Positions 1 through 29,019 of a DNA stretch of 64,000 nt are shown here, piece by piece. The DNA comes from an uncultured Coriobacteriaceae bacterium (GTDB taxonomy: Bacteria > Actinomycetota > Coriobacteriia > Coriobacteriales > Atopobiaceae). The stretch is from assembly GCA_902779675.1 (NCBI GenBank), contig CACZCK010000016.1, positions 1 through 64,000 of the forward strand. The letters are read 5' to 3'. Position 1 is the first letter of the stretch. Each line of letters begins with the position of its first letter. Position numbers and translations under genes: made by a program. Under the pieces are notes generated by a model. The model was not told the origin of the DNA, ran no database searches, and worked only from the letters and a program-made list of their open reading frames with translations.

Positions 1-825
1 CAGGTTGAAGACCTCGCAGCCCGTCCTGCCGTCCATCCAGGCCAGCGCCGCCACGTGGCCCGCGGCCAGGTCCATCACGTGGATGTAGTCGCGCACGCCG
101 GTGCCGTCGGGCGTGTCGTAGTCGTCGCCGAAGACGTGCACGGCGTCGCGCCGGCCCACGGCCACCTGCGCCACGTAGGGCAGCAGGTTGTTGGGGATGC
201 CCTTGGGGTCCTCGCCCATGAGGCCCGACGGGTGCGCGCCAATGGGGTTGAAGTAGCGCAGCAGCACGACGTCCCACTCGGGGTCGGCCACCACCAGCGA
301 GCGCAGGATCTCCTCGACCATCCACTTGGTCCAGCCGTAGGGGTTGGTGGCCGGCTTCTTGGGGCTCTCCTCGGTCAGCGGCAGCGCGTCGGGGTCGCCG
401 TAGACGGTGGCCGAGCTGCTGAAGATGATGGACTTGCAGCCGTAGATTCGCATCGTCTCGAGCAGCGCAAGTGTCGACCCCAGGTTGTTGGCATAGTATT
501 CGAGCGGCTTCTTGACGCTCTCCCCTACCGCCTTCAGTCCCGCGAAGTGGATCACGGCGTCGATGGGATAGGCATCGAAGACCATGGCGAGCATCTTGGT
601 GTCGCGGACGTCCGCATGCACGAAGGAGAGCTGTTCAAAGGCTTCCTCGCCCACGATCTTCTTGATGCGGCGTAGGACCTTAATGCTCGAGTTGCACAGG
701 TTGTCCATCACCACCACCCGGTAGCCCTGCTCCAGCAGACAGACGACGGTGTGGCTGCCAATGAAGCCACACCCACCCGTCACCAGCACGCAGCGATACC
801 GTGGTTTCTCGTTGTTGTCATCCAT
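1..825 (-). CDS. galE: UDP-glucose 4-epimerase, partial (3' end outside window)
   Basis: Interconverts UDP-galactose and UDP-glucose, the step that regenerates UDP-glucose for GalT in the cytosolic Leloir pathway. The 275 codons visible start at the ATG at 825, after a GAGGAG ribosome binding site. They show the NAD-binding glycine motif TGGCGFIGSH at residues 16-25, the SSSATVYG segment, and the YxxxK catalytic pair (about Y163 and K167), followed by the RYFNPIGAHPSG segment typical of GalE. Family length is about 330-340 residues, so roughly the last 60 lie beyond base 1. It is the last visible gene of the lac/gal operon, 24 bp after the HAD phosphatase. Confidence 0.96.
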   Translation of the reverse strand, partial: MDDNNEKPRYRCVLVTGGCGFIGSHTVVCLLEQGYRVVVMDNLCNSSIKVLRRIKKIVGEEAFEQLSFVHADVRDTKMLAMVFDAYPIDAVIHFAGLKAVGESVKKPLEYYANNLGSTLALLETMRIYGCKSIIFSSSATVYGDPDALPLTEESPKKPATNPYGWTKWMVEEILRSLVVADPEWDVVLLRYFNPIGAHPSGLMGEDPKGIPNNLLPYVAQVAVGRRDAVHVFGDDYDTPDGTGVRDYIHVMDLAAGHVAALAWMDGRTGCEVFNL

Positions 826-849
826 CGAAGGCTCCTCTCTACGCTCGTC

Positions 850-1710
850 CTATGAGCGCATGAATCGCGGCATCTCTCCGCTTGTCGCAGCCGCCGCGAT
901 GTCCTCGAGCGCTGCTGCCACGGCATCATCGGTGGCCGCACCGATGCGGTAGCGCGCCGCGGCAGCTGCGTCGGCGCTGGCATTGCTTACTGCCACCGCA
1001 TGCCCCGCGGCTTCGAACATCGAGATGTCGTTCTCCGAGTCGCCGAACGTCGCCACCTCGTCGAGCGAGACGCCGAGGTGCGCGGCCAACACCTCCACGG
1101 CGCGCCCCTTGCTCCACCCTCGCGGGAGGATGTCGATAAAGACGCCGTTCAGCGCGGGAAACACGAAATCGAGTGTGGGAACGGCAGCGCGCAGTTCGTC
1201 GCGCAGCGCCACCATCTGGGGCCAGGGAAGGTCGCAGCGCACGTTCGCCTTGATGTAGGAGGGCTGGTCGAGCCGGTCGATCACGCGCGGGTCCTTCCCG
1301 AAGCAGGCCGCGTGCCGCTCCAGCTCCGCATCCGATATGCCCAGCAGGTAAGCCGCGCCATCGGTCGTCTGCGAGATGTCGTTGAGGTCGTAGACCACCA
1401 GCGCACAGCCCTCGTGCTGCGACACCAGCTCTGCGACGGCCGCAAGGTCGGCCGCATCCAGCAGTTCCTCGTGCACTAGCTCGCCGTCGGCATACACCAG
1501 CTGGCCATTGACGAACGCACCGGTGCGATAGCACGCCTCGTCGCCGTCGAACATCCAGCGCATCGCCGCAGGTACTCGGCCCGAAACCGGGCCGAACCAC
1601 AGGCCGGCGTCGAGCATGGCATGGACCGCCCGGATGGCACGCGCGCTGGCGTGTGGCGCGCCCAGGGGGATGAGAGTGTTGTCGAGATCGGTCAGCGCCA
1701 GACGAATCAT
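850..1710 (-). CDS. HAD-superfamily (Cof-type) sugar phosphatase
   Basis: A 286-residue cytosolic phosphatase of the Cof/YidA-type HAD group. Motif I DLDNTL holds the nucleophile D8 and D10, and the C-terminal GDSENDISMFEAAG is motif IV with the Mg2+-binding acids. The cap lies between, as in class IIB enzymes that act on sugar phosphates. The ATG at 1710 is preceded by GGGAGGAG; the frame stays open upstream, but that stretch is repetitive and lacks homology. It sits between galT and galE in the operon headed by the lactose PTS. I infer that its substrate is galactose-6-phosphate from LacG, which would feed the Leloir enzymes. The family and metal site are clear; the substrate is a hypothesis. 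Confidence 0.85.
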   Translation of the reverse strand: MIRLALTDLDNTLIPLGAPHASARAIRAVHAMLDAGLWFGPVSGRVPAAMRWMFDGDEACYRTGAFVNGQLVYADGELVHEELLDAADLAAVAELVSQHEGCALVVYDLNDISQTTDGAAYLLGISDAELERHAACFGKDPRVIDRLDQPSYIKANVRCDLPWPQMVALRDELRAAVPTLDFVFPALNGVFIDILPRGWSKGRAVEVLAAHLGVSLDEVATFGDSENDISMFEAAGHAVAVSNASADAAAAARYRIGAATDDAVAAALEDIAAAATSGEMPRFMRS

Positions 1711-1825
1711 GCCGCTCCTCCCTTCGTATCGGTCCTTCGTATCGGCACTTCGCACGAAGCCCTTCGCATCGGCACTTCGCGCAAGGCCTTCGCGTCGAAA
1801 CTCTGCCTTGTCGTCCGCGGGTCCG
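1711..1825 (-). repeat. Short tandem repeats before the HAD phosphatase gene
   Basis: The gap between galT and the phosphatase gene contains copies of a unit that reads CCTTCGTATCGGCACTTCGC on the plus strand: 1734-1753 and 1761-1780 (one mismatch), with partial copies at 1721-1732 and 1787-1797. On the mRNA strand each copy carries CGAAGG, which resembles a ribosome binding site, and the last copy merges with the real one, GGGAGGAG. Confidence 0.75.
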
Positions 1826-3235
1826 CTACAGACTGGCGAGGAAGCGGCCGAGGGCTGCCCTTCCCTCCACGTCCCACTTGAACACGCCGGCATCCTCCAG
1901 CACGCCGGCAAAGACCTGCCCGACACCATCCCGTGTGAGCGTGCCCGCCTCGAGGTCCCCCAGCAGGCGCGGAGGCAGGATGGCCATGCCCATCACCTCG
2001 ATGAGCCCGATGTTCTCCTTCTTCACGTGCCACTTGTCCTCGTGGGGATGGAAGACGCCCAGTGGATGCGCCTCGGAGGTCACGTTGCACCGCAGGGCCA
2101 GGCAGAGCTCGTAGCCGCCATCCACCCGGCGCGCGATGGGGGTCACGGTGTTGTGCGGCGTGCCGTCCGCGTCGCGGGCGACGATTCCGACTGTGCGGTC
2201 GGTCCATCCACGCCAAGCGCAGGTCAGCTGCCATGCCACCTCCAGCAGCCGCGCGCGATCCGCGCAGCGCAGGCGCAACACCGTGAGCGGCCAGCGCAGC
2301 ACCGCGCACGCCACGTCGGGATAAGCCTGCAGGCGCACCTCCTGAGCCACCTCGGCCTGCATCATGGCGAACACGTGCCGACCGCCCTGGAAATGGTCGT
2401 GGCTCAGAATCGATCCGCCCACAATGGGCAGGTCGGCGTTCGACCCCACGAAGTAGTGAGGCAGCTGGTCCACGAAATCGAGTAGGCGCGTCATGTTGGC
2501 CCGGCTCACCACCATCGGACGGTGCTCGGTACTCATGGCGATGCAGTGCTCCTCGAAGTAGGCGTACGGGCTGTACTGGAAGCCCCAGGTCTCCCCACCC
2601 AGGCTAAGGGGCACCACCCGCAGGTTCTGCCGGGCGGGATGAGCGCCGAACGCCGCCTGCGCCCCACGCCCGTAGTACCCCACGTTCTCCACGCACAGTT
2701 GGCAGGCGGGATACTGGCTGCCCGTCGGCGCGCTGCCCGCCGCAGCGATGGCCGCTGGGTCCTTCTCGGGTTTGGAGAGGTTGATGGTGATCTCGAGCTC
2801 GCCCCAGCGAGTTGGGGTCGTCCAGCTGACATTGCGGGCGATGGCGGCCTCGCGCACATAGCGCACGTCGCAACACAGCCGATAGAACCAGTCGGTCGCC
2901 GCCAGGGGCCCGCTGGCCTCGGCCAGCACATGGAAGCGGCTATTGATCCGCGAGGGTCGCTCCATGAGCAGGCCCATGAGCTCGGTCTGCACCCTATCGC
3001 GCCCGGAAGGCGTGTCCTCCTCGATGCCTGCCGCCACACCAGCTGACCCCAGCCGCTCCATGAGGGCCTCGAGGTCGTCGCCGGCCTCCTCCGCGTCTGT
3101 CCACGAGGGCAGCGGGCCCTCCTCGCGCAGCGCCGCCAACAGGCGGTTGTAGGCCCACGCGCGATCGTCGCGGCCGATGATGCCGCGCCGCTCCGCATAG
3201 ACGACCAGCGCCGCTACATCCTGTGTCACACCCAT
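1826..3235 (-). CDS. galT: UTP/UDP-glucose--hexose-1-phosphate uridylyltransferase, class II
   Basis: Transfers UMP between UDP-glucose and galactose-1-phosphate, giving UDP-galactose and glucose-1-phosphate (Leloir pathway). The 469-residue length and the N-terminus (DVAALVVYAERRGII, then NRLLAAL) match the GalT type of low-GC gram-positives, which is longer than the E. coli enzyme. The HDHFQGG segment around position 280 belongs to the nucleotidyl-transfer histidine region. Its ATG at 3235 overlaps the end of galK by 10 bp, and the ribosome binding site lies inside galK, so the two are probably translationally coupled. The following gap holds short repeats. Confidence 0.95.
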   Translation of the reverse strand: MGVTQDVAALVVYAERRGIIGRDDRAWAYNRLLAALREEGPLPSWTDAEEAGDDLEALMERLGSAGVAAGIEEDTPSGRDRVQTELMGLLMERPSRINSRFHVLAEASGPLAATDWFYRLCCDVRYVREAAIARNVSWTTPTRWGELEITINLSKPEKDPAAIAAAGSAPTGSQYPACQLCVENVGYYGRGAQAAFGAHPARQNLRVVPLSLGGETWGFQYSPYAYFEEHCIAMSTEHRPMVVSRANMTRLLDFVDQLPHYFVGSNADLPIVGGSILSHDHFQGGRHVFAMMQAEVAQEVRLQAYPDVACAVLRWPLTVLRLRCADRARLLEVAWQLTCAWRGWTDRTVGIVARDADGTPHNTVTPIARRVDGGYELCLALRCNVTSEAHPLGVFHPHEDKWHVKKENIGLIEVMGMAILPPRLLGDLEAGTLTRDGVGQVFAGVLEDAGVFKWDVEGRAALGRFLASL

Positions 3236-4422
3236 TGCGCCTGCGCCCCCTCTCCGGAGATACGATAGACCTGGCAGGCACCTGCGCCAAAGCAGGCGTC
3301 CATGCCCTCGACGTAGGCGTCGAGCAGCTCAGTCGGCACGAAGGCCTGGATGGAGCCGCCGAAGCCACCACCATGGATGCGCGTGGCTCCCCGCCCCTGC
3401 AGCAGGCGCGTCGAGAGCGCGATGGCCACCATCGCGTCCTGCTCCCGCGCGCCGCCCACGCTCACGTTCTGCAGGAACATGGCCGAGCTGGCGCCGGAGC
3501 GCTCCGTCAGCAGCAGAAAGCGTGCGAGATCGCGCGCGCCCAGTGCTTCCCAGCGCGCGTCGACCAGCTCCATCTCCTGCCAATAGTGGAGCGCACGCAG
3601 CACCATGCGGTCACCCAGCTTGCGCCGGAGCTCGGGCAGGCGCTCGACCAGCTGGAGCTCGCGCACATCGCAGAGACGCCTGCCACCCAGCGCCCGCGCC
3701 ACCTTGCGCATCTCGGCTGGCACGGCTGCGTACTCGTCGGTGTAGGCGCTGTGGTCGCAGCCCACGTCGGTCAGGCAGAGCGCCAGGCCGTAGTCGGCGA
3801 AGTCCAGGGCGAGGCGCCTGGTGGCCGGGCGCTCCTCGGCAAAGTCCATGTACGACAGCCCGCCCATGCTCACGGCCAGCTGGTCCATGAGCCCGCAGGG
3901 CTTGCCGAACCAGTCGCGCTCCACGCGCTGGGCCAGCTGGGCCGCCTCGACGTTGTCGATCTCGCGACCCGGCCAGAGGGCCTCCATCGCACGGCAAAGC
4001 GCCAGCTCGTAGGCCGCCGACGACGACAGCCCACCACCTGCGGGAATGTCGCTTGCCATCACGAGGTCGAAGCCCGCCGGGCGGCGGCCCGTGAGAGCCA
4101 TCTGCGCGGCCATGCCCCGCACCAGCGCGGTGGACGTCACGTACTCGGCCTCGCTCGGCTCGAGGGAGTCGAGCCCCACCGCCACCAGGTCGTGCCCCGC
4201 GCTGTAGACGCGGATCGTGTCCGTACCGTTGGGCGCTGTCAGACCCTCAATGCAGCGGTCGAGCGAGGCGGCGATCACCCGGCCGCCCTCGTGGTCGGTA
4301 TGGTTGCCGGCAACCTCGGTGCGCGCCGGGGCACGAACCGCGAGGACGCCCTCCACGCAGCGTCCGGTCTTCTCGATAAACGTGGCCCCCAGCCTGTCGA
4401 CTATGCCTGTGACATCGATCAT
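3226..4422 (-). CDS. galK: Galactokinase
   Basis: Phosphorylates galactose at C1 with ATP, the entry step of the Leloir pathway. The 398 residues carry the substrate motif RTEVAGNHTDHEGG (residues 34-47, with presumed catalytic R34 and D43) and the GHMP-kinase ATP loop IPAGGGLSSSAAYE. The start chosen is the ATG at 4422, behind GGAGAGGAG. The frame stays open far upstream through the antisense of lacG, but that extension has no homology or ribosome binding site. The gene follows lacG after a 332-bp repeat-rich gap and overlaps galT. Confidence 0.96.
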   Translation of the reverse strand: MIDVTGIVDRLGATFIEKTGRCVEGVLAVRAPARTEVAGNHTDHEGGRVIAASLDRCIEGLTAPNGTDTIRVYSAGHDLVAVGLDSLEPSEAEYVTSTALVRGMAAQMALTGRRPAGFDLVMASDIPAGGGLSSSAAYELALCRAMEALWPGREIDNVEAAQLAQRVERDWFGKPCGLMDQLAVSMGGLSYMDFAEERPATRRLALDFADYGLALCLTDVGCDHSAYTDEYAAVPAEMRKVARALGGRRLCDVRELQLVERLPELRRKLGDRMVLRALHYWQEMELVDARWEALGARDLARFLLLTERSGASSAMFLQNVSVGGAREQDAMVAIALSTRLLQGRGATRIHGGGFGGSIQAFVPTELLDAYVEGMDACFGAGACQVYRISGEGAQAQWV

Positions 4423-4754
4423 TTCGTGCTCCTCTCCGCGGGCCATTTCCGCAGCCTGGCGCCATACGCTCCTGCGCTCGCAGCCCGGCAACACCCGCTC
4501 CCGAATCTGCAGCTGTGCAGGCCCGTCCGCGCAACCAAGCGCTACCTGCCCTCCGCCCGCAGCTCGGCAGGCATGCCCCCTCGCAACCCAGTGCAGCTCG
4601 CTCCTGAACCTGCAGCTCCTTAGCTCCGCAACCGACGCTGCCAGCACCAACGCTGTAGCCCAGTCTGCCACCACGCCGCAGCCAGGCCGCAGCAGCTCTC
4701 GCGCCCAGCACCGCAGCCAGGCCTGCAGCAGCTCTCGCGCCCAGCGCCCCTCGC
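4423..4754 (-). repeat. Repeat-rich gap between lacG and galK
   Basis: 332 bp without a convincing gene. It contains a direct tandem duplication, copy 1 at 4676-4710 and copy 2 at 4711-4746 (35 and 36 bp, about two differences; both run from CCGCAGCCAGGCC to CTCGCGCCCAGC). The rest is degenerate, with many GCAGCTC/GCTGC-like elements. No terminator with a U-tract is visible, so read-through from lacG to galK is plausible. Confidence 0.75.
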
Positions 4755-6173
4755 CTACATCAGCACTCCCGTGCGTGCGACCTGCGCAAACCAGTAGGCC
4801 GACGCCTTGGGCACGCGGTCCTGGGTGGCGAAGTCGACGTAGAAGAACCCGTAGCGCTTGTTGTAGCCGTTGGTCCAGCTGAACATGTCCATGAGCGACC
4901 ACAGGAAGTATCCGCTCACGTTGACGCCCGCCTCGCGCGCCCGCAGCAGCCAGCTGAGGTGCGCCCGCACGTAGTCGATGCGATACGGGTCGTCCACTAC
5001 CCCGTCTACCAGCTCGTCCTTGGCACCCATGCCGTTCTCGGTGATGAGGATCTCGCGGTAGTTGGGGTACTGCAACCGGATGCGCACGAGCAGGTCGTAC
5101 ATGCCCTCGGGGTAGATGAGCCAGTCCCAGTCGGTGCGCGGGATGCCTTCCTTGTTCACCCGCTCCCCCACGCCCCGCAGGGCATAGCGCTCGGTGCCCT
5201 TGTCCCCGGTGGCGTTGTGATGCAGGATGTTGGGCCCGTCGTAGGCCCGCAGGAATCGGCTCTGGTAGTAGTTGATGCCCAGGTAGTCGTTGTGACGGGC
5301 AGCCGCGCGCAGACAGACGAGGTCCTCGTCGCGGATATCGAGCTCGCCACCGCAGAGGGCCGCGAGACCCTGCGCGCAGGCGAGAGTGTCCGGCGCATAG
5401 TCGCCCCGGAAGGTGGCATCCAGCAAAAACTGGTTCTGGAGTACGTCTTCCTTGCGGGCCGCCTCGATGTCGGCGGGGTCGAGCTCGTCGTAGGGATACT
5501 TGCCCTCCAGCGTGTGCACCACGCCGATCTTGCCAGGATGGCCCGCCTCCTCGAAGGCCAGCACCGCCCGCGCATGGGCCAGCATCATGTTGTGATTGCA
5601 CTGCAGCGCCTGGTCGAGCCTGCCGGTGATCCCACCCGGTGGGAAGGTGCCCTCGATGTAGGTGTTGCTCGCCACCGCCCAGATCTCGTTGAACGTGAAC
5701 CAGTTGCGGACCTCGCGGCCATACTCCGCAAAGCAGAAGCGTGCATACTTCTCGAAGGCATCGATGGTCGCACGGTTGAGAAAATCGCCCTGCGCGAAGA
5801 GGGCCTGGGGCGTGTCGAAGTGGTGCAGCGTGACGTAGGGCTCGACCCCATGGGCGTGGCACGCCTGGAAGAGCCGGTGGTAGAAGGCCACGCCCTCGGC
5901 GTTGACGGTGCCGGTACCCTCTGGGAAGATACGGCTCCACGCGATGGAGATGCGGATGCCGTTGATGCCAAAGCGCTCGCACAGGGCGAGATCCTGCTCG
6001 TAGCGATGGTAGAAGTCGGACGCGGGATCGGCAGAGAAACGCCCGCGCTCCGCCAGAAAGCCGTCCCACGAGACCAGGCCCTTGCCATGGCCGTGTGTCT
6101 CGCCCTCGCACTGATAGGCCGCCGTCGCCCCACCAAAGATGAAGCCCTCGGGAAATGCGCAGGTAGCAGACAT
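4755..6173 (-). CDS. lacG: 6-phospho-beta-galactosidase, GH1
   Basis: Hydrolyses lactose-6-phosphate to glucose and galactose-6-phosphate in the cytosol. The 472 residues align along their whole length with remembered LacG features: HFDTPQALFAQGDFLNR, the acid/base glutamate in TFNEIW (E163; NEI rather than the NEP of other GH1 enzymes), FPPGGITGRLDQAL, the nucleophile in ITENGMG (E379), and the phosphate-binding loop S432-K439-Y441 in FSWTNGYNKRYGFFYVD. The ATG at 6173 has GAGAGGAG upstream. It lies directly downstream of the lactose EIICB gene, as expected for PTS lactose use. Confidence 0.93.
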   Translation of the reverse strand: MSATCAFPEGFIFGGATAAYQCEGETHGHGKGLVSWDGFLAERGRFSADPASDFYHRYEQDLALCERFGINGIRISIAWSRIFPEGTGTVNAEGVAFYHRLFQACHAHGVEPYVTLHHFDTPQALFAQGDFLNRATIDAFEKYARFCFAEYGREVRNWFTFNEIWAVASNTYIEGTFPPGGITGRLDQALQCNHNMMLAHARAVLAFEEAGHPGKIGVVHTLEGKYPYDELDPADIEAARKEDVLQNQFLLDATFRGDYAPDTLACAQGLAALCGGELDIRDEDLVCLRAAARHNDYLGINYYQSRFLRAYDGPNILHHNATGDKGTERYALRGVGERVNKEGIPRTDWDWLIYPEGMYDLLVRIRLQYPNYREILITENGMGAKDELVDGVVDDPYRIDYVRAHLSWLLRAREAGVNVSGYFLWSLMDMFSWTNGYNKRYGFFYVDFATQDRVPKASAYWFAQVARTGVLM

Positions 6174-6264
6174 GGAACTGCTCCTCTCTGTAGGTTGTTG
6201 CTGCTGCATGCCTTCTCCGACGGCGCCCCGACACACAGCCGGGGCGCCACCAGGGGAGGGAGGG

Positions 6265-8004
6265 TCAGCCGAGCTGCTCGCGTACGAACTCGAGCGCAGC
6301 CTCGCCATTGCGGGTGAGGGCGATGTACTGGCGTCCCTCGCAAGCAGCCGCCTGCACGCCCATCCGGTCGGCGTCAGCCTTCAGGTCCTCGTAGTACGAC
6401 GCCACCTGCGGCGCCAGCACCACCAGGTCGAAGTCCGGCATGATGTCGAGGTGAGCACCATAGGCTCCGGCTGCGCTCTCGAGGTCGATACCTCGCTCCT
6501 CTGCTGCCTTTGCCAGCGCGTTTGCCAGCAGTCCAGAAGTGCCGCCGCCCGCGCACAGCACGAGCACCTTCTTGCCCGCCAGCACGTCCGCGCCTGACGG
6601 CGCAGCGACCTCAGCCTTGACGACCGTCGGGGCCGTCACGTCGCCAGCCAGGTCGGACGCCTGGGTCCTGCCCTGGAAGGCATCGGTCATGCGCGAGGCC
6701 TTCTCTGCAGCACGGGCCTCTAGCTCGTCGGCCTCGACCTGGGCCTCTTCCTCGCACTTCTCGAGGTCGTAGGTCTTGAAGAAGGGATAGTAGATCACGA
6801 AGTCCATCACCAGGGCCACTGCCACAAAGACGAACGACAGCGGACTGAGGCCGCAGCCGAGCACGATGCCCAGCGGCGCCGGCGTGGTCCACGGCAGCGT
6901 GTAGAGGAAGCCGTTCATGCCCAGCACGTCGATGAAGAGCTTGAACACCCAGGCATTGGCCACGGGCGCCAGCACGAAGGGCACCAGGAAGACCGGGTTC
7001 AGCACCATCGGTGCGCCGAAGAGGAAGGGCTCGTTGACGCCGAAGGTCACCGGGATAGCCGAAGCGCGCCCCACCGCACGCAGCTCCTTCGACTTGGCCA
7101 GGAAGGCGAACATCAGGCAGGGAACCAGCGTGGCGCCGGTGCCGCCCATCGTGACCACGAAGAACTGCAGGTCCAGGCTGAGAGCGTGGGTGGCGTGCAT
7201 GCCGGCCTGGAATGCGGCCAGGTTCTCGGTCATGCCGGCGAGCAGCGCGACCTCCACGGCGGGCTCCACGATGGAAGGCCCGTGCACGCCCACAAACCAG
7301 AAGAGCGACATCGCGCCGTAGATGATGGCCATGCCGATGTAGCTGTCGGCCGCCGAGAAGAGCGGCTGGAAGAGATGGATGACACCTTCCGCCACGCAGG
7401 CGCCCGTCAGCGCACGGACGGCCGTGTCTACCAGCCAGAAGAGGATGACCGACAGCGAGAACGGGATGATGTCCTTGAAGGTCTGCGAGATGTTGGGCGG
7501 CACCTGCTCGGGCATGTGAATGGTGATGTTGCGCGACACGCAGAAGCGGTAGATGCCACCCACCACGAAGGCGGCCATGAAGGCCGTGAGCAGGCCCTTG
7601 CTGCCCAGGCAGTCCGCGGCGAAGCCTCCCTCGATGGGATCGGACGCCAGGATGAGCAGGCCCACCGTCGCGCAGGTCATGGTGGAGAGGAAGTTGATCT
7701 GGTTGTTGCGGGGCATGTCGCGGTTGAGGCTGTCGGTGAAGTGCTTGGCCGTCGTGGCGGCTACCACCAGCGACAAGATGCCCATGGAGTAGTTGTACGG
7801 CTTGGTGATGAGCGACTCGATGTGCGCCGGCCAGACAAAGCCCCAGATGTTGGGCACGTAGGCCACCAGCAGGAAGATGGACGAGAAGATGACGATGGGC
7901 ATGCACGAGATGAAGCCGTCCTTGACGGCCTTGAGGTAGCGGTTGCGGGCCAGCCGGTCGAAGAAGGGCTTGCCGCGCTGGATGGTAGCGATGAGGGTAT
8001 CCAT
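6265..8004 (-). CDS. lacE: Lactose-specific PTS EIICB component
   Basis: Membrane transporter that imports and phosphorylates lactose (possibly also cellobiose-like disaccharides). In 579 residues it has an N-terminal IIC domain of about ten membrane segments (residues 1 to about 440) containing FGVNEPFLFGAPMVLNP. A hydrophilic linker rich in Glu and Ala follows, then a C-terminal IIB domain (from about residue 478) with the phospho-cysteine in VLVLCAGGGTSG (about C485). The ATG at 8004 follows AGGAG. The partner EIIA is lacF, upstream; lacG follows. Lactose is favoured over cellobiose because of the adjacent LacG and Leloir genes. Confidence 0.92.
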   Translation of the reverse strand: MDTLIATIQRGKPFFDRLARNRYLKAVKDGFISCMPIVIFSSIFLLVAYVPNIWGFVWPAHIESLITKPYNYSMGILSLVVAATTAKHFTDSLNRDMPRNNQINFLSTMTCATVGLLILASDPIEGGFAADCLGSKGLLTAFMAAFVVGGIYRFCVSRNITIHMPEQVPPNISQTFKDIIPFSLSVILFWLVDTAVRALTGACVAEGVIHLFQPLFSAADSYIGMAIIYGAMSLFWFVGVHGPSIVEPAVEVALLAGMTENLAAFQAGMHATHALSLDLQFFVVTMGGTGATLVPCLMFAFLAKSKELRAVGRASAIPVTFGVNEPFLFGAPMVLNPVFLVPFVLAPVANAWVFKLFIDVLGMNGFLYTLPWTTPAPLGIVLGCGLSPLSFVFVAVALVMDFVIYYPFFKTYDLEKCEEEAQVEADELEARAAEKASRMTDAFQGRTQASDLAGDVTAPTVVKAEVAAPSGADVLAGKKVLVLCAGGGTSGLLANALAKAAEERGIDLESAAGAYGAHLDIMPDFDLVVLAPQVASYYEDLKADADRMGVQAAACEGRQYIALTRNGEAALEFVREQLG

Positions 8005-8357
8005 ATGCCTCTCCTTTTGAGTGTGGGTCGCCGCTGGACAGATGCGGTGGTGCAGCAAGGTAGACGCGAAGGCGCCACAGGGTTGGTGTGGTGAACGGGC
8101 AGGTATATGTGGTTGTCGACAGGTTGGTGGCGGTCCGGTTGGTTGGTGTGGTCGTGCCGGTCGGGTGGTGGTCTGGCAGGCTGGCGGTCCGGTGGGCTGG
8201 TGCGTTCCGGCGGGTAAGTGGTCCGGCAGGTGGTTGCACCGACGTCGCATGATGGATGCGGCCACCGTAGCTTTGATGCGAGGGTGCGGCGAAACGCTGC
8301 CAGCACCGAGAGCGCCGAACAGAGGAGGCACCGCACCCCCGCGACTGCGGGTACTCG
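8005..8357 (-). other. C/A-rich repetitive leader between lacF and lacE
   Basis: 353 bp without a recognisable gene. From about 8081 to 8235 the plus strand is a degenerate G/T-rich string (repeated GGTTGGTGTGGT- and GGTCCGGT-like units), so the lac transcript here is rich in C and A, poor in G and probably unstructured. That composition resembles a Rho utilisation site. The function is inferred from composition only. Confidence 0.55.
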
Positions 8358-8663
8358 CTAGCGATAGATGTCCATCAGCGCGTCGATGACATCGCGCAGC
8401 AGCATGGTGGTCATGAGGTGGTCTTGGGCATGGACCAGAAGGACCGACGGCGTGGTCACCTCGCCACGCGCTTCGGCGGTGAGCAGGTCGGTCTGGGAGG
8501 TGTGGGCGTCGTTGAGCAGCCCCTGCGCCTCGTCGACCAACGCCCGAGCACCGGCAAAGTCGCCCTCCTTCGCCTTCTTGACGGCAGTGAGCAGCTTGGT
8601 GCGCGCGTCTCCCGAAAGAGCGACGATCTCTATCATGGTCAACTCGAGTTCATCGGCGGTCAT
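8358..8663 (-). CDS. lacF: Lactose-specific PTS EIIA component
   Basis: Cytosolic phosphocarrier that takes phosphate from HPr and passes it to the IIB domain of LacE. The 101 residues match the all-helical lactose/cellobiose EIIA family, with the phospho-histidine H78 in LLVHAQDHLM at the family's usual position and D81 next to it for Mg2+/trimer contacts. It is the first gene of the lac/gal operon, starting at the ATG at 8663, after GAAAGGGGAT. Its promoter lies under two LacI-type operators. Confidence 0.94.
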   Translation of the reverse strand: MTADELELTMIEIVALSGDARTKLLTAVKKAKEGDFAGARALVDEAQGLLNDAHTSQTDLLTAEARGEVTTPSVLLVHAQDHLMTTMLLRDVIDALMDIYR

Positions 8664-8895: not shown

Positions 8896-9906
8896 ATGGC
8901 CCGCAGACCGAATACGAACGCCTCGCTCCGCGACGTGGCGAAGCTTGCCGGCGTATCCGCGCAGACCGTCTCGCGCGTGGCGAACGGCTCCGACGCAGTG
9001 CGCTCCGCCACGAGGGAGCGTGTGCTCTCCGCCATGGATCAGCTGGGCTATCGTCCCAGCTTCGCGGCACGCAGCCTGCGCGCCGGCACGTATCGCAGCG
9101 TGGGCCTGGTCATGCCCTGCGACATCTCGGCCACCGGCAGGCGCTTCCAGCTGGAGGGCATCGCGACCGCGGCCGCCGAGCGCAAGTACGCGCTCACGCT
9201 GGTGCAGCTCTGCGACGGCGACATCTCACTCGAGGATGCGTCTCGGCGCATGGCATCGCTGCCGGTCGACGGCCAGATCCTGGGCCTGGGATCGGACCCG
9301 TCGGACTTTGCCACCTTCGTGCCCCCCGCCACCATCCCCACCGTCATCATCAGTACGCATCCGCACCCGCGCTGCGCCACCGTCAGCAACGACCAAGTGG
9401 CCTGCTCCACGGCCATCGTCGACTACCTCGTGTCCATGGGCCATCGCGAGATCCGCTTCGCGGGCGGTCGTCGCGAGGCGCCCGCCAATATCGGGCGTCT
9501 CGAGGGCTGGATGGCTGCCATGGCAGCGCATGGTCTCGCATGCCACGAGCCCCTCTTTGGCGACTGGACCGCCGACAGCGGCTATCGCATAGGTGCCCTG
9601 CTGGCCCACGACGATACCTGCACGGCCATCTATGCCGGCAACGACGCCATGGCCGTTGGTGTCATCTACGCCCTACGCGACGCGGGGCGCCGTGTGCCCG
9701 AGGATGTCAGCGTCATCGGCGTCGACGACTCGCTGGTGGGCGTCATCCCTCGTCTAGAGCTGAGCTCGTACCGCTTCGACGACGAGCAGGTGGGCGCCAT
9801 CGCCTTCGACCTGGCCATCAATCCCCCGCTGGGCGATGTCCCGCCGCACACACTGGTGCAAGGCGCGGTGGTCAAGCGCTCCACTGTCGCACCGCCCCGC
9901 AGCTAG
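8896..9906 (+). CDS. LacI-family transcriptional regulator of the lac/gal operon
   Basis: A 336-residue repressor. The N-terminal helix-turn-helix and hinge region (ASLRDVAKLAGVSAQTVSRVANG, from about residue 8, then RPSFAARSLRAG) is followed by a periplasmic-binding-like sugar domain ending in the GVIYALRDAGRRVPEDVSVIGVDDS segment. The ATG at 8896 is chosen because AAGGAGGG lies about 10 nt upstream and the HTH then begins at the normal distance. It is divergent from lacF with two operators between. The inducer is probably lactose, galactose or a phosphorylated derivative; this is inferred from context. Confidence 0.93.
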   Translation: MARRPNTNASLRDVAKLAGVSAQTVSRVANGSDAVRSATRERVLSAMDQLGYRPSFAARSLRAGTYRSVGLVMPCDISATGRRFQLEGIATAAAERKYALTLVQLCDGDISLEDASRRMASLPVDGQILGLGSDPSDFATFVPPATIPTVIISTHPHPRCATVSNDQVACSTAIVDYLVSMGHREIRFAGGRREAPANIGRLEGWMAAMAAHGLACHEPLFGDWTADSGYRIGALLAHDDTCTAIYAGNDAMAVGVIYALRDAGRRVPEDVSVIGVDDSLVGVIPRLELSSYRFDDEQVGAIAFDLAINPPLGDVPPHTLVQGAVVKRSTVAPPRS

Positions 9907-10337: not shown

Positions 10338-11846
<1,509 letters not shown>

Positions 11847-13529: not shown

Positions 13530-13894
13530 GGCATGCTCCCGTCTCGGTCCCTCGCGTTGGCAGACGGCGCGGCCTTGGTTCGGAAGGTCGTCGCGCCTCG
13601 GTTGCCCGCATTTGCCAACGGTGACAAGGATAACGCTCCTCGCGTCGGCAGGTGCCTCACTGCGAGGAGGAGAAGCACTTACAGCGCAGGTTGTAGGTAG
13701 TTCCGGACCCCTCCCCCCCGCCCCAACCACCTACAACCCAAGTTGCAAGTGCTTCCAAGCCGCACCCCCACGTGCACCGCCGTCCCTGCCTTCGATGCGG
13801 CATGTCCCCGATAAGGCGCCGCAGAACCTTCTGCCGCAGACCGCTCCCGTATTACGATGTGCTGATACAGTAGGTGCGCAGGCTGGGAGGGCAC
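13530..13894. other. Intergenic region with a long inverted repeat
   Basis: 365 bp between the divergent PhzF-like gene and a HAD gene. No gene is supported. It is dominated by the imperfect inverted repeat 13673-13754 described separately; the remainder probably holds the promoters of both flanking genes, but no clear -35/-10 pair stands out. Confidence 0.6.
13673..13754. repeat. Two-part inverted repeat around a C-rich loop
   Basis: Outer arms AAGCACTT (13673-13680) and AAGTGCTT (13747-13754) are perfect. The inner arms GGTTGTAGGTAGTT (13689-13702) and 13725-13738 pair over 14 nt with one mismatch. Eight unpaired bases on each side separate the two parts, and a 22-nt loop contains a run of seven C. 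Confidence 0.85.
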
Positions 13895-14725
13895 ATGATC
13901 GAGAGAGTCACGGCCGTCATCGCAGACGTCGACGGAACCATCAACCTCAAGGGCTCGCCCCTCATGCCACGCACGCTGGCAGCCATCAACCGCCTGCACG
14001 AGCAGGGCATTCTCTTTGGCACGGCGTCCGGACGTCCGCTCGACCACCGTTCGCTCGACAAGGCGCGCGAGTGGGGTCTCAACTTTGAGTTCGACATGGC
14101 CATCGGCATGAATGGCGGCGACCTGTGGGACCGCGACCACGAGGGCATCGAGCACATCATGCTCCTGCGCAAGGAGCTCGTGCGCGAGATCTGTGAGTTC
14201 ATGTGGCCGCTCGACTGCAACGTCATCGTCTACGAGGACGCCTATGACCACGTACTGGTCAAGCGGCGCGACCAGCACCTGGAAGACAGCGTCATCCGCA
14301 ACAAGTCGTTCTGGGAGTTCTCCACGCCCAAAGAGATGGCCGCACACGACACCGGCAAGATCGAGATCCAGTACGACAAGGACAAGCCGGGCCTTGAGGA
14401 GCAGCTCATGGCCGTGATTGCCGAGCACCCCTCAACCGAGTGGGACGTGGTGAAGACGTTCCCCGGCACGGTCGAATTCATGACGCCCGGCCTGGACAAG
14501 AGTGTGGCCCTGCGTCGCTACGCCGAGCGCAACAGCATCCCCATCAGCGAGATCATGGCCTTCGGCGACATGGACAACGACATTGCCATGATCGCCGCAG
14601 CGGGCTGGGGCGTCTGCATGGCCAACGGCTGCGACGAGGCCAAGGCGGTAGCCGACGCCATCACCGAGTACGGCGTGCTCGAGGACGGCATGGGCCGCTA
14701 TCTGGAGACCTACGTGCTCTGCTAG
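13895..14725 (+). CDS. HAD-superfamily hydrolase, Cof type
   Basis: A 276-residue phosphatase with motif I ADVDGTIN near the start, SGRPLDHRSLDKAREWG in the cap region, and motif IV GDMDNDIAMIAAAGWGVCMANG near the end, where substrate and Mg2+ bind. This is the class-IIB Cof/YidA group acting on phosphosugars or nucleotides. The ATG at 13895 follows GGGAGGGC. It is a separate family branch from the HAD gene in the lac/gal operon and stands alone. The substrate is unknown. Confidence 0.88.
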   Translation: MIERVTAVIADVDGTINLKGSPLMPRTLAAINRLHEQGILFGTASGRPLDHRSLDKAREWGLNFEFDMAIGMNGGDLWDRDHEGIEHIMLLRKELVREICEFMWPLDCNVIVYEDAYDHVLVKRRDQHLEDSVIRNKSFWEFSTPKEMAAHDTGKIEIQYDKDKPGLEEQLMAVIAEHPSTEWDVVKTFPGTVEFMTPGLDKSVALRRYAERNSIPISEIMAFGDMDNDIAMIAAAGWGVCMANGCDEAKAVADAITEYGVLEDGMGRYLETYVLC

Positions 14726-15421: not shown

Positions 15422-15618
15422 GGGTTCCCCTCTCACAAGACTGTACCGCGCTCACCGGGCATCGTGCCGGCGCGTGACGCCAGCGGCGCCACCCCAGCAT
15501 AGACCATCGGATGCTGCAACCATTCCGACAGGACAAGCGGCTCCCGTTCGCACGACAGGCACGCGCGTCCGTCTGCTGCGGTACGCTTGAACGCGACCAC
15601 CCAATGACAGGAGCTGCC

Positions 15619-17973
15619 ATGCACCGCACGCCATTCAACGAGGACTGGACCTTCTACCGCAACGACGCGCCGACAGGGCGGCCCGTGACCCTACCCCACG
15701 ACGCCATGATTGGCACCGAGCGCACACCCGACGCGCCCTCGGGCGGAGAGCAGGGCAACTTTGCAGGCGGCACCTACCGCTACGAGAAGCGCTTCGTCGC
15801 TCCCGCCTCATGGGAGGGACGCTGCACGATGCTCGAGTTTGGCGGCGTGTATCGCCACGCCGTGGTCACGCTCAACGGCAGCGAGGTCGGGCGTTGCGCC
15901 TATGGCTGGAGTCCCTTCCTTGTCGACCTCACGTCCGCACTGCGGCCCGGTGCCGAGAACGTGCTAGCCGTGACCTGCGACAGCGCCAACCAGCCCGACT
16001 CGCGCTGGTACACGGGCGCGGGCATCTTTAGGCCCGTATGGCTGTGGGAGGGCGACGAACACCACATCGATCCGCAAGGCGTGCGGCTGCGCACGCTGTC
16101 GATCGACCCCGCCCACGTGCGCGTGGACGTGGAGGCAACAGAAGGCGACGTGCTCGTGGAGCTGCTCGACGGGCAGGACGTGGTTGCCTCGGGCTGGGGC
16201 GCCCACCTCACCCTCACGGTACCCGACGCCAAGCTCTGGAGCACCGAGCATCCATACCTCTACACTTGGCGCGTCTCGCTCCACGAGGGCGAGCAGACCC
16301 TCGACGAGGCAACGGGGGCCTTTGGCATCCGCCTGCTGCGCTGGGGTACCGACGGGTTCTTTGTGAACGGCGAGCGCACGTTGCTGCGGGGTGGCTGCAT
16401 CCACGCCGACAACGGCATCCTGGGTGCCTCCGCCTGGCCCGACGCCGACCGCCGGCGCGTACGCATGCTCAAGGAGGCAGGCTTCAACGCGCTGCGCTCG
16501 GCACACAACCCCGCCTCTGAGGCCACCATCGAAGCCTGCGACCGCTACGGCATGTACCTCGTCGACGAAACCTGGGACCAGTGGTTCGAGCATAAGACGG
16601 CCCACGACTACGCCAGCGAGTGGCGGGAGCACCACCTGGCCGACCTCGACGCCATGGTGGCACGCGACTACAATCATCCCTCCATCATCATGTGGTCCAT
16701 CGGCAACGAGATCAGCGAGCCACGAGGCGCAGAGGGGCTCACGGCCATGGACCAGATGGTCGCCCACCTGCACGAGGTGGACCCGTCCCGCCCCGTGACC
16801 TGCGGCATCAACCTCACCATCCTGGGCAGCGCCGCCAAGGGCAAGGCCGTCTACGACGCAGAGAACGGCGGCATGGGCGAAGGTGGCGAGGCCTCGCAGT
16901 CGGGGCTCACCAGCTCGACCTTCAACGCGCTGTCGCAGGCCATCGGCTTTGGCATGAACCACATGGCCGACCTACCCTCCTTCGACCGCGCCTGCTCGCC
17001 GGCACTCGATCGGCTGGACATCGCCGGATACAACTACGCCACCGGACGCTACCGCATGGACGGCAGGCTGCACCCCAACCGCGTGATCATGGGCTCGGAG
17101 ACCCTCTGCGGCGACGTGGTACGCAACTACCGCGCCATGGAGCGCCTTCCCTACCTGGTGGGCGACTTCGTATGGGCTGCCTGGGACTACCTGGGCGAAG
17201 CCGGCTGCGGCGCGTGGACCTACGGCGACCCCGACCGCGCGTTCCAGAAGTCCTACCCGTGGCTTCTGGCCAACCAGGGCGCCGTGGACATCTGCGGCCG
17301 TCCCAACGCCGAGCTCTTTCTCGCGCAGGCAGCCTGGGGACGTGCCAACCAGCAGCCGCTAGTGGCCGTCCGTCCGCTCGGCCAGGGCGAGCCACCCGCA
17401 CGTGCCATCTGGCGCTTCTCCAACGGACTGGCCAGCTGGAGCTGGACGGGATGTACGGGCGAGCGTGCCGTGGTGGAGGCGTTCTCGGATGCGCCCGTGG
17501 TGGAGCTGCGCCTTAACGGCCGCTCCATCGGGCGCAAGCGCCCGCGCGGATGCATCTGCCGCTGGAGTGTCCCCTACGAGCCAGGCGAGCTGCGCGTCAC
17601 CGCGCTCACGGCGCGCGGCGAGGAGCTCGGACATACCACGCTACGCTCGGCGGACCATGCGCAGGTACGCCTGATACCCGAGCAAAACGAAGCGCACACG
17701 GGCGAGCTCGTGTTTGTGGACGTGCTGGTAGCCGACGACGAGGGGATCGTCGAGCACAACGACGACCGCCTGCTCATGGCCAGCGCGGAGGGGTGCGTGC
17801 TGCTGGCCTTTGGCAGCGCCCGCCCGCGCACCGAGGAGCGCTACGACACCGGCCGGCACACCACCTACTTTGGCCATGCGCAGGCCATCCTACGCATGGG
17901 AACGCAGGATGCCACGCTCGTCGTAGTCGATGGTAGCGTGCGCACACAGGTCACCATCGTCCACGTGGACTGA
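15619..17973 (+). CDS. Beta-galactosidase, GH2
   Basis: A 784-residue GH2 enzyme with the order jelly-roll sugar-binding domain, Ig-like domain and TIM barrel. The barrel has LLRGGCIHADNGILG, the acid/base glutamate in GNEISEP (E364) and the nucleophile in MGSE (E494), then the VGDFVWAAWDYLGE segment. A C-terminal Ig-like module (DUF4982-like) follows. No signal peptide is present, so it acts on sugars already imported. The ATG at 15619 is preferred to one at 15604 because AGGAG sits 6 nt before it. Beta-galactosidase is most likely; beta-glucuronidase cannot be excluded. Confidence 0.88.
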   Translation: MHRTPFNEDWTFYRNDAPTGRPVTLPHDAMIGTERTPDAPSGGEQGNFAGGTYRYEKRFVAPASWEGRCTMLEFGGVYRHAVVTLNGSEVGRCAYGWSPFLVDLTSALRPGAENVLAVTCDSANQPDSRWYTGAGIFRPVWLWEGDEHHIDPQGVRLRTLSIDPAHVRVDVEATEGDVLVELLDGQDVVASGWGAHLTLTVPDAKLWSTEHPYLYTWRVSLHEGEQTLDEATGAFGIRLLRWGTDGFFVNGERTLLRGGCIHADNGILGASAWPDADRRRVRMLKEAGFNALRSAHNPASEATIEACDRYGMYLVDETWDQWFEHKTAHDYASEWREHHLADLDAMVARDYNHPSIIMWSIGNEISEPRGAEGLTAMDQMVAHLHEVDPSRPVTCGINLTILGSAAKGKAVYDAENGGMGEGGEASQSGLTSSTFNALSQAIGFGMNHMADLPSFDRACSPALDRLDIAGYNYATGRYRMDGRLHPNRVIMGSETLCGDVVRNYRAMERLPYLVGDFVWAAWDYLGEAGCGAWTYGDPDRAFQKSYPWLLANQGAVDICGRPNAELFLAQAAWGRANQQPLVAVRPLGQGEPPARAIWRFSNGLASWSWTGCTGERAVVEAFSDAPVVELRLNGRSIGRKRPRGCICRWSVPYEPGELRVTALTARGEELGHTTLRSADHAQVRLIPEQNEAHTGELVFVDVLVADDEGIVEHNDDRLLMASAEGCVLLAFGSARPRTEERYDTGRHTTYFGHAQAILRMGTQDATLVVVDGSVRTQVTIVHVD

Positions 17974-19282: not shown

Positions 19283-20014
19283 CTACTTGGTGCAGAGGCT
19301 GAGTGCGGCCTCGTCGGCGATCACGGTGCAGTTGGGGTGCAGCTGCAGGATGGAGGCAGGCACGCGCGGCGTCACCGGGCCGTAGCACATGTCGTAGACG
19401 GCCTGCGCCTTGGCCTCGCCGTTGGCGATGACCAAGATCGAGCGTGCGTGCATGATGGTCTGCACGCCCATGGTGTAGGCCTGGCGCGGCACGTCCTCGA
19501 TACGGTCGAACAGGCGGCTGTTTGCCTTGATGGTGCTCTCGGTGAGGTCAACGCAATGCGTGCCCTTGGAGAAGACGTCGTCGGGCTCGTTGAAGCCGAT
19601 GTGGCCGTTGTTGCCAATACCCAGCAGCTGCAGGTCGACATAGCCAGCGTCCTTGACCATGGCGTCATACTCGGCGCAGGCGGCTTCTGCATCGGGGTTG
19701 GAGCCGTCGGGCACGTGCGTGTTGGCCAGATCGATGTTGATGTGATCAAAGAAGTTCTTGCGCATGAAGTAGTGATAGCTCTGCGGGTCGTCGTGCGAGA
19801 GACCACGGTATTCGTCGAGGTTGTAGGTGACGACCTCGGAGAAGTCCACGTCGTCCTTCTCGTACCACTCAATGAGCTGCTTGTAGGCGCCGATGGGCGT
19901 GGTGCCGGTGGCCAGGCCCAGGATGGAGCAGGGCTTGAGAATGACCTGCGCGGAGATGATGTTTGCGGCCTTGCGGCTCATGTCGTCGTAGTCCTTGGCG
20001 TGACGGATCTTCAT
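19283..20014 (-). CDS. nagB: Glucosamine-6-phosphate deaminase
   Basis: Converts glucosamine-6-phosphate to fructose-6-phosphate and ammonia, the last step of amino-sugar use. The 243 residues have LGLATGTTPIGAYK near the start, VTYNLDEYRGL with the catalytic aspartate, and LLGIGNNGHIGFNEP with the ring-opening histidine. It is the last gene of the sialic-acid operon and is followed by a strong hairpin. The substrate is formed by NagA, encoded 13 kb away at 33387-34544, so the two loci must act together. Confidence 0.97.
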   Translation of the reverse strand: MKIRHAKDYDDMSRKAANIISAQVILKPCSILGLATGTTPIGAYKQLIEWYEKDDVDFSEVVTYNLDEYRGLSHDDPQSYHYFMRKNFFDHINIDLANTHVPDGSNPDAEAACAEYDAMVKDAGYVDLQLLGIGNNGHIGFNEPDDVFSKGTHCVDLTESTIKANSRLFDRIEDVPRQAYTMGVQTIMHARSILVIANGEAKAQAVYDMCYGPVTPRVPASILQLHPNCTVIADEAALSLCTK

Positions 20015-20058
20015 GGCCGAGACTCCCTTCGTGTTGTCGGTTGGCTGTGCGAGTGCGG

Positions 20059-20742
20059 CTACCCCTCGATTGCAGCAGTAAACCAGCTGGTGAGCGAGGT
20101 GGGATGGGTGATGGCGGTGCCCACGACCACGGCCCAGGCACCCGCGTCGATGGCGGCCTTGGCGTCGGCCGGCGTGTGCACGTGGCCCTCGCAGATGATG
20201 GGCAGGCCAGGGAACTCGCTGGTGGCCTGCTGCAGCAGGGCGATGTCGGGACCCTCGTCAAGTGTGGTCTCGATGGCGGGCTTGTTGTGGCTGAGCGTGG
20301 TGGATACCAGATCGCAGCCGCAGGCCACGGCGTTGCGGATGTCGTCGATGGTCATGCAGTCGGCCATGACCAAGGTCTCGGCCTGCGCACGCAGGTCGGC
20401 GACGGTCTGCGCGAAGGTGCGCCCGTCGGGGCGCGGGCGGTCGGTGGCGTCAATGGCCACCACGTCGCAGCCGGCGTTGACGCACGCCAGGGCATGGCGC
20501 AGCGTCGGGGTGATGTACACGCCCTCGTGACCCTCCTTCCACAGGCCGATGACCGGAATGTCCACGCGGCCCTTGATGGCCGAGATGTCGGACAAGCCCT
20601 GGCAGCGGATGGCCGCCGCGCCGCCCAGCTCGCAGGCGCGCGCCATCTGGGCCATCGTCTCGGGGTTGCGCAGCGGCTCGCCAGGGTAGGCCTGCACCGA
20701 GACGATGAGCTTGCCGCGGATCTGCTCAATGACGGGATGCAT
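20059..20742 (-). CDS. nanE: N-acetylmannosamine-6-phosphate 2-epimerase
   Basis: Epimerises ManNAc-6-phosphate to GlcNAc-6-phosphate. The 227-residue TIM-barrel protein has IRGKLIVSVQAYPGEPLRN at its start, DIPVIGLWKEGHEGVYITPT, and PIICEGHVHTPADAKAAIDAGA with the C-terminal phosphate-binding GAWAVVVGTAI segment. The ATG at 20742 is chosen because GAAAGG lies upstream; a GTG at 20754 lies within that site. It lies between nanK and nagB in pathway order. Confidence 0.95.
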   Translation of the reverse strand: MHPVIEQIRGKLIVSVQAYPGEPLRNPETMAQMARACELGGAAAIRCQGLSDISAIKGRVDIPVIGLWKEGHEGVYITPTLRHALACVNAGCDVVAIDATDRPRPDGRTFAQTVADLRAQAETLVMADCMTIDDIRNAVACGCDLVSTTLSHNKPAIETTLDEGPDIALLQQATSEFPGLPIICEGHVHTPADAKAAIDAGAWAVVVGTAITHPTSLTSWFTAAIEG

Positions 20743-20784
20743 GTTGTTCTGCACCTTTCTCTCGTTGGTGATGGGTAGGCGTGC

Positions 20785-21738
20785 CTACAGCGACGCGTAC
20801 GCCGACGCGATTACGTTCTCGGCGGCGCCGATCAGTGGGGCATCGCCACCCAGGTCGCCCGATACGATGGGGGTCTGCGCCACGGGCGGCATCACGGACT
20901 CGTGCCAGCCGCGCGCCATGGCGTCGTGCCAGGCAGGACCGCACTGCGCCACCGAGCCGGAGAGAATCACGCAGTCGGGGTCGAGCATGTTGACCAGGCT
21001 GCCGAGCACCTCACCGATGGCGTGGCCGGAGCGGTCCTCGGCCGCACGTGCCGCGTCGTCGCCCGCCGCCGCGCGACGGTCGATCTCGGCGCCGTCGATG
21101 GGCGTCCCATCGGGCAGGGTGGCGTCACCGCCCAGCTCCACGTAGCGCTCGATGATTCCAGGACCTGCGGCGATGGGCTCCAAGTGGCCGGTCGCGCCGC
21201 ACGAGCAGGGCACACCCACCGCGTCGGAGCAGCTCACATGCCCGATGTGGCCCGCCTCGTTGTGCGCGCCAAGCATGATGTGCCCGTCCTCCACGAAGGC
21301 GCCGCCAATGCCGGTGCCCACGGCCACGACCAGGCAGCTGGAGGCCTCGCGGCCGCCGCCCCAACGGGCCTCGCCCAGTGCGTGGGCATGCACGTCGTTG
21401 AGCACGCGAGCGGGCACCCCAAAGGCCGCCTCCAGCTCGGCACCCAGATGCGTGCCGCCCCAGCCAGGCATGATCTCGTTGGCGTAGGTGACGTCGCCCG
21501 TCGCGGGGTCGATCACCCCAGCGCTCGAGACGCCAATGCCGTCGACAGTGCCACCAGCAGCGTCGATCACGCGGCGTGCGGAGTCGATGGCGGCCTGCAG
21601 CACATGCGCGCCACCCAGCTTTGCCTCGGTGGGCACCTTGCCCACGAACTCCACCACGGGAGCCTTCCCCTCGTCCAGGATCACGAGGGCAGATGCGATC
21701 TTGGTCCCTCCGATGTCGAGCGCTACGATCCGTGCCAT
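20785..21738 (-). CDS. nanK: ROK-family N-acetylmannosamine kinase
   Basis: Phosphorylates ManNAc at C6 with ATP. The 317 residues show the ROK phosphate loop ALDIGGTKIASALV at the start, GVSSAGVID, VGTGIGGAFVEDG, and the catalytic aspartate in NDVHAHALGE. The zinc motif of ROK kinases appears as PCSCGATGHLE, with histidine where most members have the third cysteine. The ATG at 21738 follows GGAGGAGG. The order nanA-nanK-nanE supports ManNAc as substrate rather than glucose or GlcNAc. Confidence 0.92.
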   Translation of the reverse strand: MARIVALDIGGTKIASALVILDEGKAPVVEFVGKVPTEAKLGGAHVLQAAIDSARRVIDAAGGTVDGIGVSSAGVIDPATGDVTYANEIMPGWGGTHLGAELEAAFGVPARVLNDVHAHALGEARWGGGREASSCLVVAVGTGIGGAFVEDGHIMLGAHNEAGHIGHVSCSDAVGVPCSCGATGHLEPIAAGPGIIERYVELGGDATLPDGTPIDGAEIDRRAAAGDDAARAAEDRSGHAIGEVLGSLVNMLDPDCVILSGSVAQCGPAWHDAMARGWHESVMPPVAQTPIVSGDLGGDAPLIGAAENVIASAYASL

Positions 21739-21769
21739 GACGACCTCCTCCGGTCGAAGTCCGATGTTG

Positions 21770-22693: not shown

Positions 22694-22768
22694 GCAATCA
22701 GGTCCTTTCGTTGTTCGTGCGGCGCGACCGCGTCGCGCCGACCGGTAGGTGACAGTCGTCGCGGACGG

Positions 22769-24867: not shown

Positions 24868-25679
<812 letters not shown>

Positions 25680-25680
<1 letters not shown>

Positions 25681-27869: not shown

Positions 27870-27871
27870 GG

Positions 27872-28828: not shown

Positions 28829-28878
28829 GTGCTCTCCTCTCTTTCTCTTCGTGTTGGCAGAAACGTTCGCCGTGCTGC

Positions 28879-28986
28879 GGGGCGAAGGGAATGCTGCTCC
28901 CCCGCTCTCGGTCGGAACGGAAGGGAGCACCCTCTCCGCCCCACAGCACGGGGCCCAGGCGCGAGTCACTACGCCCGGGCCCCGTG
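28879..28986 (-). terminator. Two stacked hairpins between binding protein and permease genes
   Basis: The first (28947-28986) has a perfect 10-bp stem, CACGGGGCCC with GGGCCCCGTG, extended by a short inner GGCG/CGCC stem. The second (28879-28942) pairs two arms of about 20 nt imperfectly, with GGGGCG/CGCCCC at its base and TGCTCCC/GGGAGCA near the loop. No U-tract follows either. They probably lower permease expression relative to the binding protein or protect its mRNA. Confidence 0.65.
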
Positions 28987-29019
28987 GGTATTGCCTATGC
29001 TATGCGCGTGTGCCGCTGG

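Follow-up and report, generated by a model that had tools for sequence, protein, structure and literature searches.

A Cof-type phosphatase gene as a candidate link between lactose uptake and the Leloir pathway in an operon of an uncultured Coriobacteriaceae bacterium

The DNA analysed here (hereafter the window) comprises positions 1 to 64,000 of contig CACZCK010000016.1 from an uncultured Coriobacteriaceae bacterium, and begins with a minus-strand operon, lacF-lacE-lacG-galK-galT-HAD-galE, in which the genes of a lactose phosphotransferase system (PTS) and a 6-phospho-beta-galactosidase are combined with those of the Leloir pathway and with a gene for a Cof-type phosphatase of the haloacid dehalogenase (HAD) superfamily; a divergent LacI-family gene lies upstream (Table 1). 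All seven genes of the original prediction were recovered on this strand and in this order, as was the 24-bp spacing between the end of the HAD gene and galE, and the galK and galT reading frames overlap. The open reading frame listed for the HAD from 1929 is too long, and an ATG at 1710 matches the start positions in relatives. Base 1 of the window is also base 1 of its contig (C16), so that galE is interrupted there. Sequence of galE was found at the ends of three contigs (C39, C8 and C2), with the 3' end of the gene at the end of C39, which shares a 40-bp overlap with C16; because this 3' end is followed on C39 by two genes that also come after the lac cluster of a relative, G008, C39 is the likely continuation of C16. 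The Leloir enzymes GalK, GalT and GalE are all encoded, galE being whole only when joined over the contig break. The gaps between lacG and galK (4423-4754) and between lacF and lacE (8005-8357) are long, repetitive and G+C-rich; the corresponding distances in relatives are some 30-40 bp for lacF-lacE and, for lacG-galK, 46-57 bp in six of them and about 220 in two. No terminator was predicted in the lacG-galK gap of this operon, and a single transcript would be expected to run from lacF to galE.

Table 1. Coordinates of the operon and its upstream region in the window
Feature	Position	Strand	Basis
lacF, PTS EIIA (lactose/cellobiose family)	8358..8663	-	PF02255 above cut-off; TIGR00823 E 2.4e-34, below its cut-off
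lacE, PTS EIIC-EIIB (lactose type)	6265..8004	-	start 8004; TIGR00394 lac_pts_IIC best family
lacG, 6-phospho-beta-galactosidase (GH1)	4755..6173	-	TIGR01233 lacG above cut-off; conserved contact residues
galK, galactokinase	3226..4422	-	PF10509, PF00288 above cut-off; NCBIfam galactokinases best families, below cut-off
galT, galactose-1-phosphate uridylyltransferase (class II type)	1826..3235	-	PF01087 above cut-off; PRK05270/galT_2 models <=590 bits, below cut-off
Cof-type HAD-IIB phosphatase, candidate galactose-6-phosphate phosphatase	850..1710	-	PF08282, TIGR01484 above cut-off
galE, UDP-glucose 4-epimerase, 5' part	1..825	-	TIGR01179 359 bits (cut-off 262)
LacI-family regulator, divergent	8907..9906 (listed from 8827; start approximate)	+	PF00356, PF13377
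Two identical operator-like palindromes TGTTAACGTAAACA before lacF	8753-8740 and 8729-8716	-	sequence search

On the lactose side, LacG scores 641.7 bits on the curated equivalog TIGR01233 (cut-off 561.2) and is identical to LacG of Lactococcus lactis at all 13 positions checked, with conservation of the catalytic Glu pair, the Ser, Lys and Tyr phosphate contacts and Trp429, which we take to be the position telling phospho-galactosidases from phospho-glucosidases; the adjoining GH1 protein (10338-11807) has Leu at this position. The IIC part of LacE falls just under the cut-off of lac_pts_IIC, still its best family (586 vs. 614 bits), and the protein passes the general lactose/cellobiose cut-offs for IIC (TIGR00410) and IIB (TIGR00853), while the best family of the LacF IIA is the lactose-specific one (117 vs. 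a cut-off of 137). The 2.9-Mb genome as a whole (G000) contains 34 GH1 matches to LacG, an unusually large number of phospho-beta-glycosidase-like genes, and a large set of such genes also occurs across much of the genus.

The HAD protein scores above the cut-offs of TIGR01484 (70.8 vs. 41.8) and PF08282 (116 vs. 20.9) and under that of TIGR00099, which represents the Cof subfamily (107.5 vs. 137). Residues Asp8, Asp10, Lys201, Asp224 and Asp228, which make up the DxD, Lys and DxxxD motifs, are invariant in an alignment of 23 HADs. The solved folds nearest to its AlphaFold model (predicted local distance difference test score, 94) include the sugar phosphatases BT4131, SupH/YbiV and PfHAD1, and the modelled fold fits a hexose-phosphate substrate, without naming which one. 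A HAD-only scan of the collection returned one close named relative, RUG14646, and otherwise distant HADs. The window encodes a second Cof-type HAD (13874-14725), a 79% relative of which lies close to the lac cluster of G008.

The original prediction that lacABCD is missing from the window was borne out, and the search of the whole genome found neither LacB nor LacD. The best LacB score, 115 bits, came from an RpiB, compared with 242-281 bits for the true LacB proteins of relatives. Just two proteins of the RpiB/LacAB family (PF02502) are encoded, one of them above the RpiB cut-off and adjoining a ribulose-phosphate epimerase gene, the other RpiB-like, above the general family cut-off alone and adjoining a phosphotransacetylase-like gene; that these represent a hidden LacAB was ruled out by scores far under the LacA and LacB cut-offs and by the neighbouring genes. 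The genome therefore contains no known isomerase for the galactose-6-phosphate made by LacG. Class I LacD had no match in this genome or in the 121 genomes of family f1; since it is missing even from the genomes of the family with LacAB, which presumably use another type of tagatose-bisphosphate aldolase, it was dropped as a marker, and LacB was taken to mark the tagatose-6-phosphate pathway in the survey of relatives.

This survey covered 399 genomes of the order, 65 of them with a close LacG. In 12 of the 65, galK-galT next to lacG are followed by a Cof-type HAD gene (a linked HAD), and none of these has LacB, whereas LacB is present in 47 of the 53 LacG genomes without a linked HAD (Fisher exact test, P = 4.6e-9, with genomes that are related and not independent cases, 25 of the 47 LacB genomes belonging to one genus). 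Neither LacB nor a linked HAD was found in six genomes, namely G003, in which the contig stops after lacG, G181 and G351, which are 72% and 82% complete, and G146, G177 and G008. The LacB genomes G028, G037, G038, G056 and G059 have galK-galT near lacG and no HAD there, indicating that the HAD is the feature that tracks the loss of LacAB. The lacFEG-galK-galT-HAD block, for which a check in relatives had been proposed, recurs in 11 further genomes, mostly with galE following, and the gene order is therefore not a matter of chance. The HADs of this genus and of G120 are 67-73% identical to that of the operon, and it is here that galE mostly follows; G076, G118 and G088 have the same order with a more distant HAD (49-51%), after which galE was not found. 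Contamination is 6-8% in G076, G118 and G120, and 1% in G088. A 51-kb contig of G014 (C87) carries identical, mirrored lac-gal-HAD clusters at both ends (L070 and L071), which represent either an assembly artefact or a true inverted duplication.

In the HAD tree, the linked HADs form two groups, which were united as a single clade in 0% of the bootstraps, and the approximately unbiased test against one linked-HAD clade gave P = 0.0235. In the LacG tree, the two linked-HAD groups and a group of LacB-type genomes form a fork without resolved order. Judging from these phylogenies, HADs were probably recruited on two separate occasions into one operon slot. G001, a LacAB-type member of the same genus, was rejected as a case of a direct switch within the genus, its LacG belonging to another clade. 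A second galK-galT pair lies unlinked on contig C26, with no obvious sugar genes adjoining; pairs of this type are kept in relatives, including G008, which is devoid of the operon pair, and most of the linked-HAD relatives have a second galT. On this evidence, the operon genes seem to be a supplementary pair belonging with LacG, a copy dedicated to its pathway.

We consider it likely that the operon provides every step of a lactose pathway in which a phosphatase is one of the links. LacFE would import lactose, phosphorylating its galactose unit, and LacG would cleave the resulting lactose-6-phosphate to glucose and galactose-6-phosphate. The Cof-type HAD, for which galactose-6-phosphate is the substrate suggested by the gene context, would strip off the phosphate, and GalK, GalT and GalE would route the free galactose into the Leloir pathway. 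The HAD would thus serve as the exit for galactose-6-phosphate, a role filled in related bacteria by LacAB, with which the tagatose-6-phosphate pathway begins. With less assurance, the balance also tips towards a more general scenario, in which Cof-type HADs entered this operon slot on two occasions as galactose-6-phosphatases in place of the isomerase, so that PTS lactose was rerouted from the tagatose to the Leloir pathway; this would be the first gene for the activity in the literature searched.

Several observations weigh against this interpretation. The comparative signal comes down to few evolutionary events, and a search for a specificity signature common to both linked HAD clades yielded two conservative positions alone, nothing usable. 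G008 has kept LacG with neither LacB nor a linked galK-galT-HAD-galE block. Broad promiscuity is common among HAD phosphatases (PMC9226320). The closest unlinked paralogues of the HAD (62-64% identity), in G002 and G007, lie directly 3' of a different GH1 gene, with AraC-type regulators and an alpha-rhamnosidase-like gene close by (L132:8048-10336 and L133:382-2799), and another HAD gene paired with a GH1 gene occurs in G088 (contig C59, L176). Given such neighbours, the HAD clade is not exclusive to galactose-6-phosphate, and the group perhaps serves the products of several phospho-glycosidases. Finally, a GH2 protein encoded at 15511-17973, with beta-galactosidases as best matches and scores far under the equivalog cut-offs, could be a second supply of free galactose. 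The pathway logic behind a galactose-6-phosphatase, as originally predicted, has gained from the exclusion of LacB, the two origins and the second galK-galT pair; the HAD may, however, be less strictly dedicated to this substrate than was proposed, since the presence of close paralogues next to other GH1 genes leaves room for a wider range of sugar-phosphate substrates.

Taken further, such breadth would make the HAD a general sugar-phosphate phosphatase, acting on galactose-6-phosphate among several hexose phosphates, mainly for stress relief and not in the service of the Leloir pathway. The natural promiscuity of the superfamily, the broad sugar phosphatases among the nearest solved structures and the varied gene contexts of the paralogues all agree with this explanation, which we nevertheless regard as unlikely, because stress relief alone accounts neither for the filling of the HAD slot solely where LacB is missing nor for the extra galK, galT and galE in the operon. 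It is less probable still that the Leloir genes use free galactose from a different source, such as the GH2 beta-galactosidase-like protein encoded ~7 kb away, with the HAD acting on galactose-1-phosphate, a toxic Leloir intermediate, to keep it from accumulating, and galactose-6-phosphate being disposed of otherwise: the unlinked galK-galT pair could already handle free galactose, there is no LacB for using galactose-6-phosphate, a galactose-1-phosphatase would work against the GalK of its own operon, and the HAD is missing beside galK-galT near lacG in LacB genomes. Dephosphorylation of lactose-6-phosphate by the HAD, as in the parallel route of Enterococcus for maltose-6'-phosphate, followed by splitting of free lactose by a beta-galactosidase such as the nearby GH2 protein, is very hard to reconcile with the intact lacG of the operon, whose phospho-substrate residues point to a dedicated hydrolase for lactose-6-phosphate.

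The palindrome TGTTAACGTAAACA has exactly 2 copies in the 64 kb, both before lacF and 24 bp apart, where 0 would be expected. Pairs spaced by 23-24 bp occur upstream of lacF in the loci of nine relatives, one of them with three copies, and loci of the G076/G088 type have a single copy; linked-HAD relatives also carry a divergent LacI gene beside lacFEG. The conservation of the palindrome pairs makes control of the operon by the LacI-family protein plausible, presumably in response to an inducer. Elsewhere in the window, nagB, nanE, a ROK-type kinase gene and a nanA/dapA-like gene lie beside hydrolase-like genes (19283-24588) in what is likely a cluster for sialic acid use, adjoining a peptide/nickel-type ABC transporter (24868-30624).

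The route through dephosphorylation is itself already known. In Lactococcus (L. lactis MG1363 and others), galactose-6-phosphate is dephosphorylated and then processed by GalK, GalT and GalE (PMC6085457; PMC4380338), and the phosphatase activity has been reported since the 1990s with no gene assigned (PMC6085457, PMC6339885), so that this premise of the original prediction stands as known physiology. The two routes, described there as usually alternatives, would be joined in the present operon, but the joining is not new, having also been proposed for a HAD of Tetragenococcus (PMC9840258). A published lacAB mutant of L. casei is reported to grow on lactose at a rate of 0.029 against 0.101 per hour (PMC5940811). 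What is new is a concrete candidate gene with a clear genetic prediction; no paper naming a galactose-6-phosphatase gene was found in the literature searched. If correct, our interpretation would mean that a gut and rumen lineage has rewired the way it uses lactose, paying with a phosphate bond, and it would correct pathway reconstructions that call genomes without LacABCD lactose-incomplete. A phosphatase selective for galactose-6-phosphate would moreover serve sugar manufacture.

Compared with known systems, the proposed pathway shares its entry into the Leloir pathway with the lactococcal dephosphorylation route, to which no gene has been linked, whereas here the candidate lies inside the lac operon. 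The lactococcal operon lacABCDFEG has the LacFE PTS and LacG in common with this one (56.6% identity for LacG), but galK-galT-HAD-galE are found here in place of lacABCD, and the regulator is of the LacI type, whereas a DeoR-type regulator accompanies the plasmid-borne operon of Lactococcus. The lac cluster of the related bacterium Collinsella aerofaciens (NZ_OY725717) encodes a LacG with 70% identity and likewise has LacI regulators. It differs from the present operon in encoding LacA, LacB and also a kinase resembling LacC, and in having no linked HAD. BT4131, YbiV (SupH) and PfHAD1, all HAD-IIB proteins, have the fold and catalytic motifs of this HAD, with 18-21% identity in structure alignments; we know of none in a lactose operon. 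In Tetragenococcus halophilus, finally, an extra HAD phosphatase accompanies lacDCBAR2, and a 2023 paper suggests that it enables the use of galactose-6-phosphate via the Leloir pathway (PMC9840258); with LacABCD present, that HAD is an addition and not a replacement, and the comparison drawn here with the present HAD concerns operon setting and proposed role.
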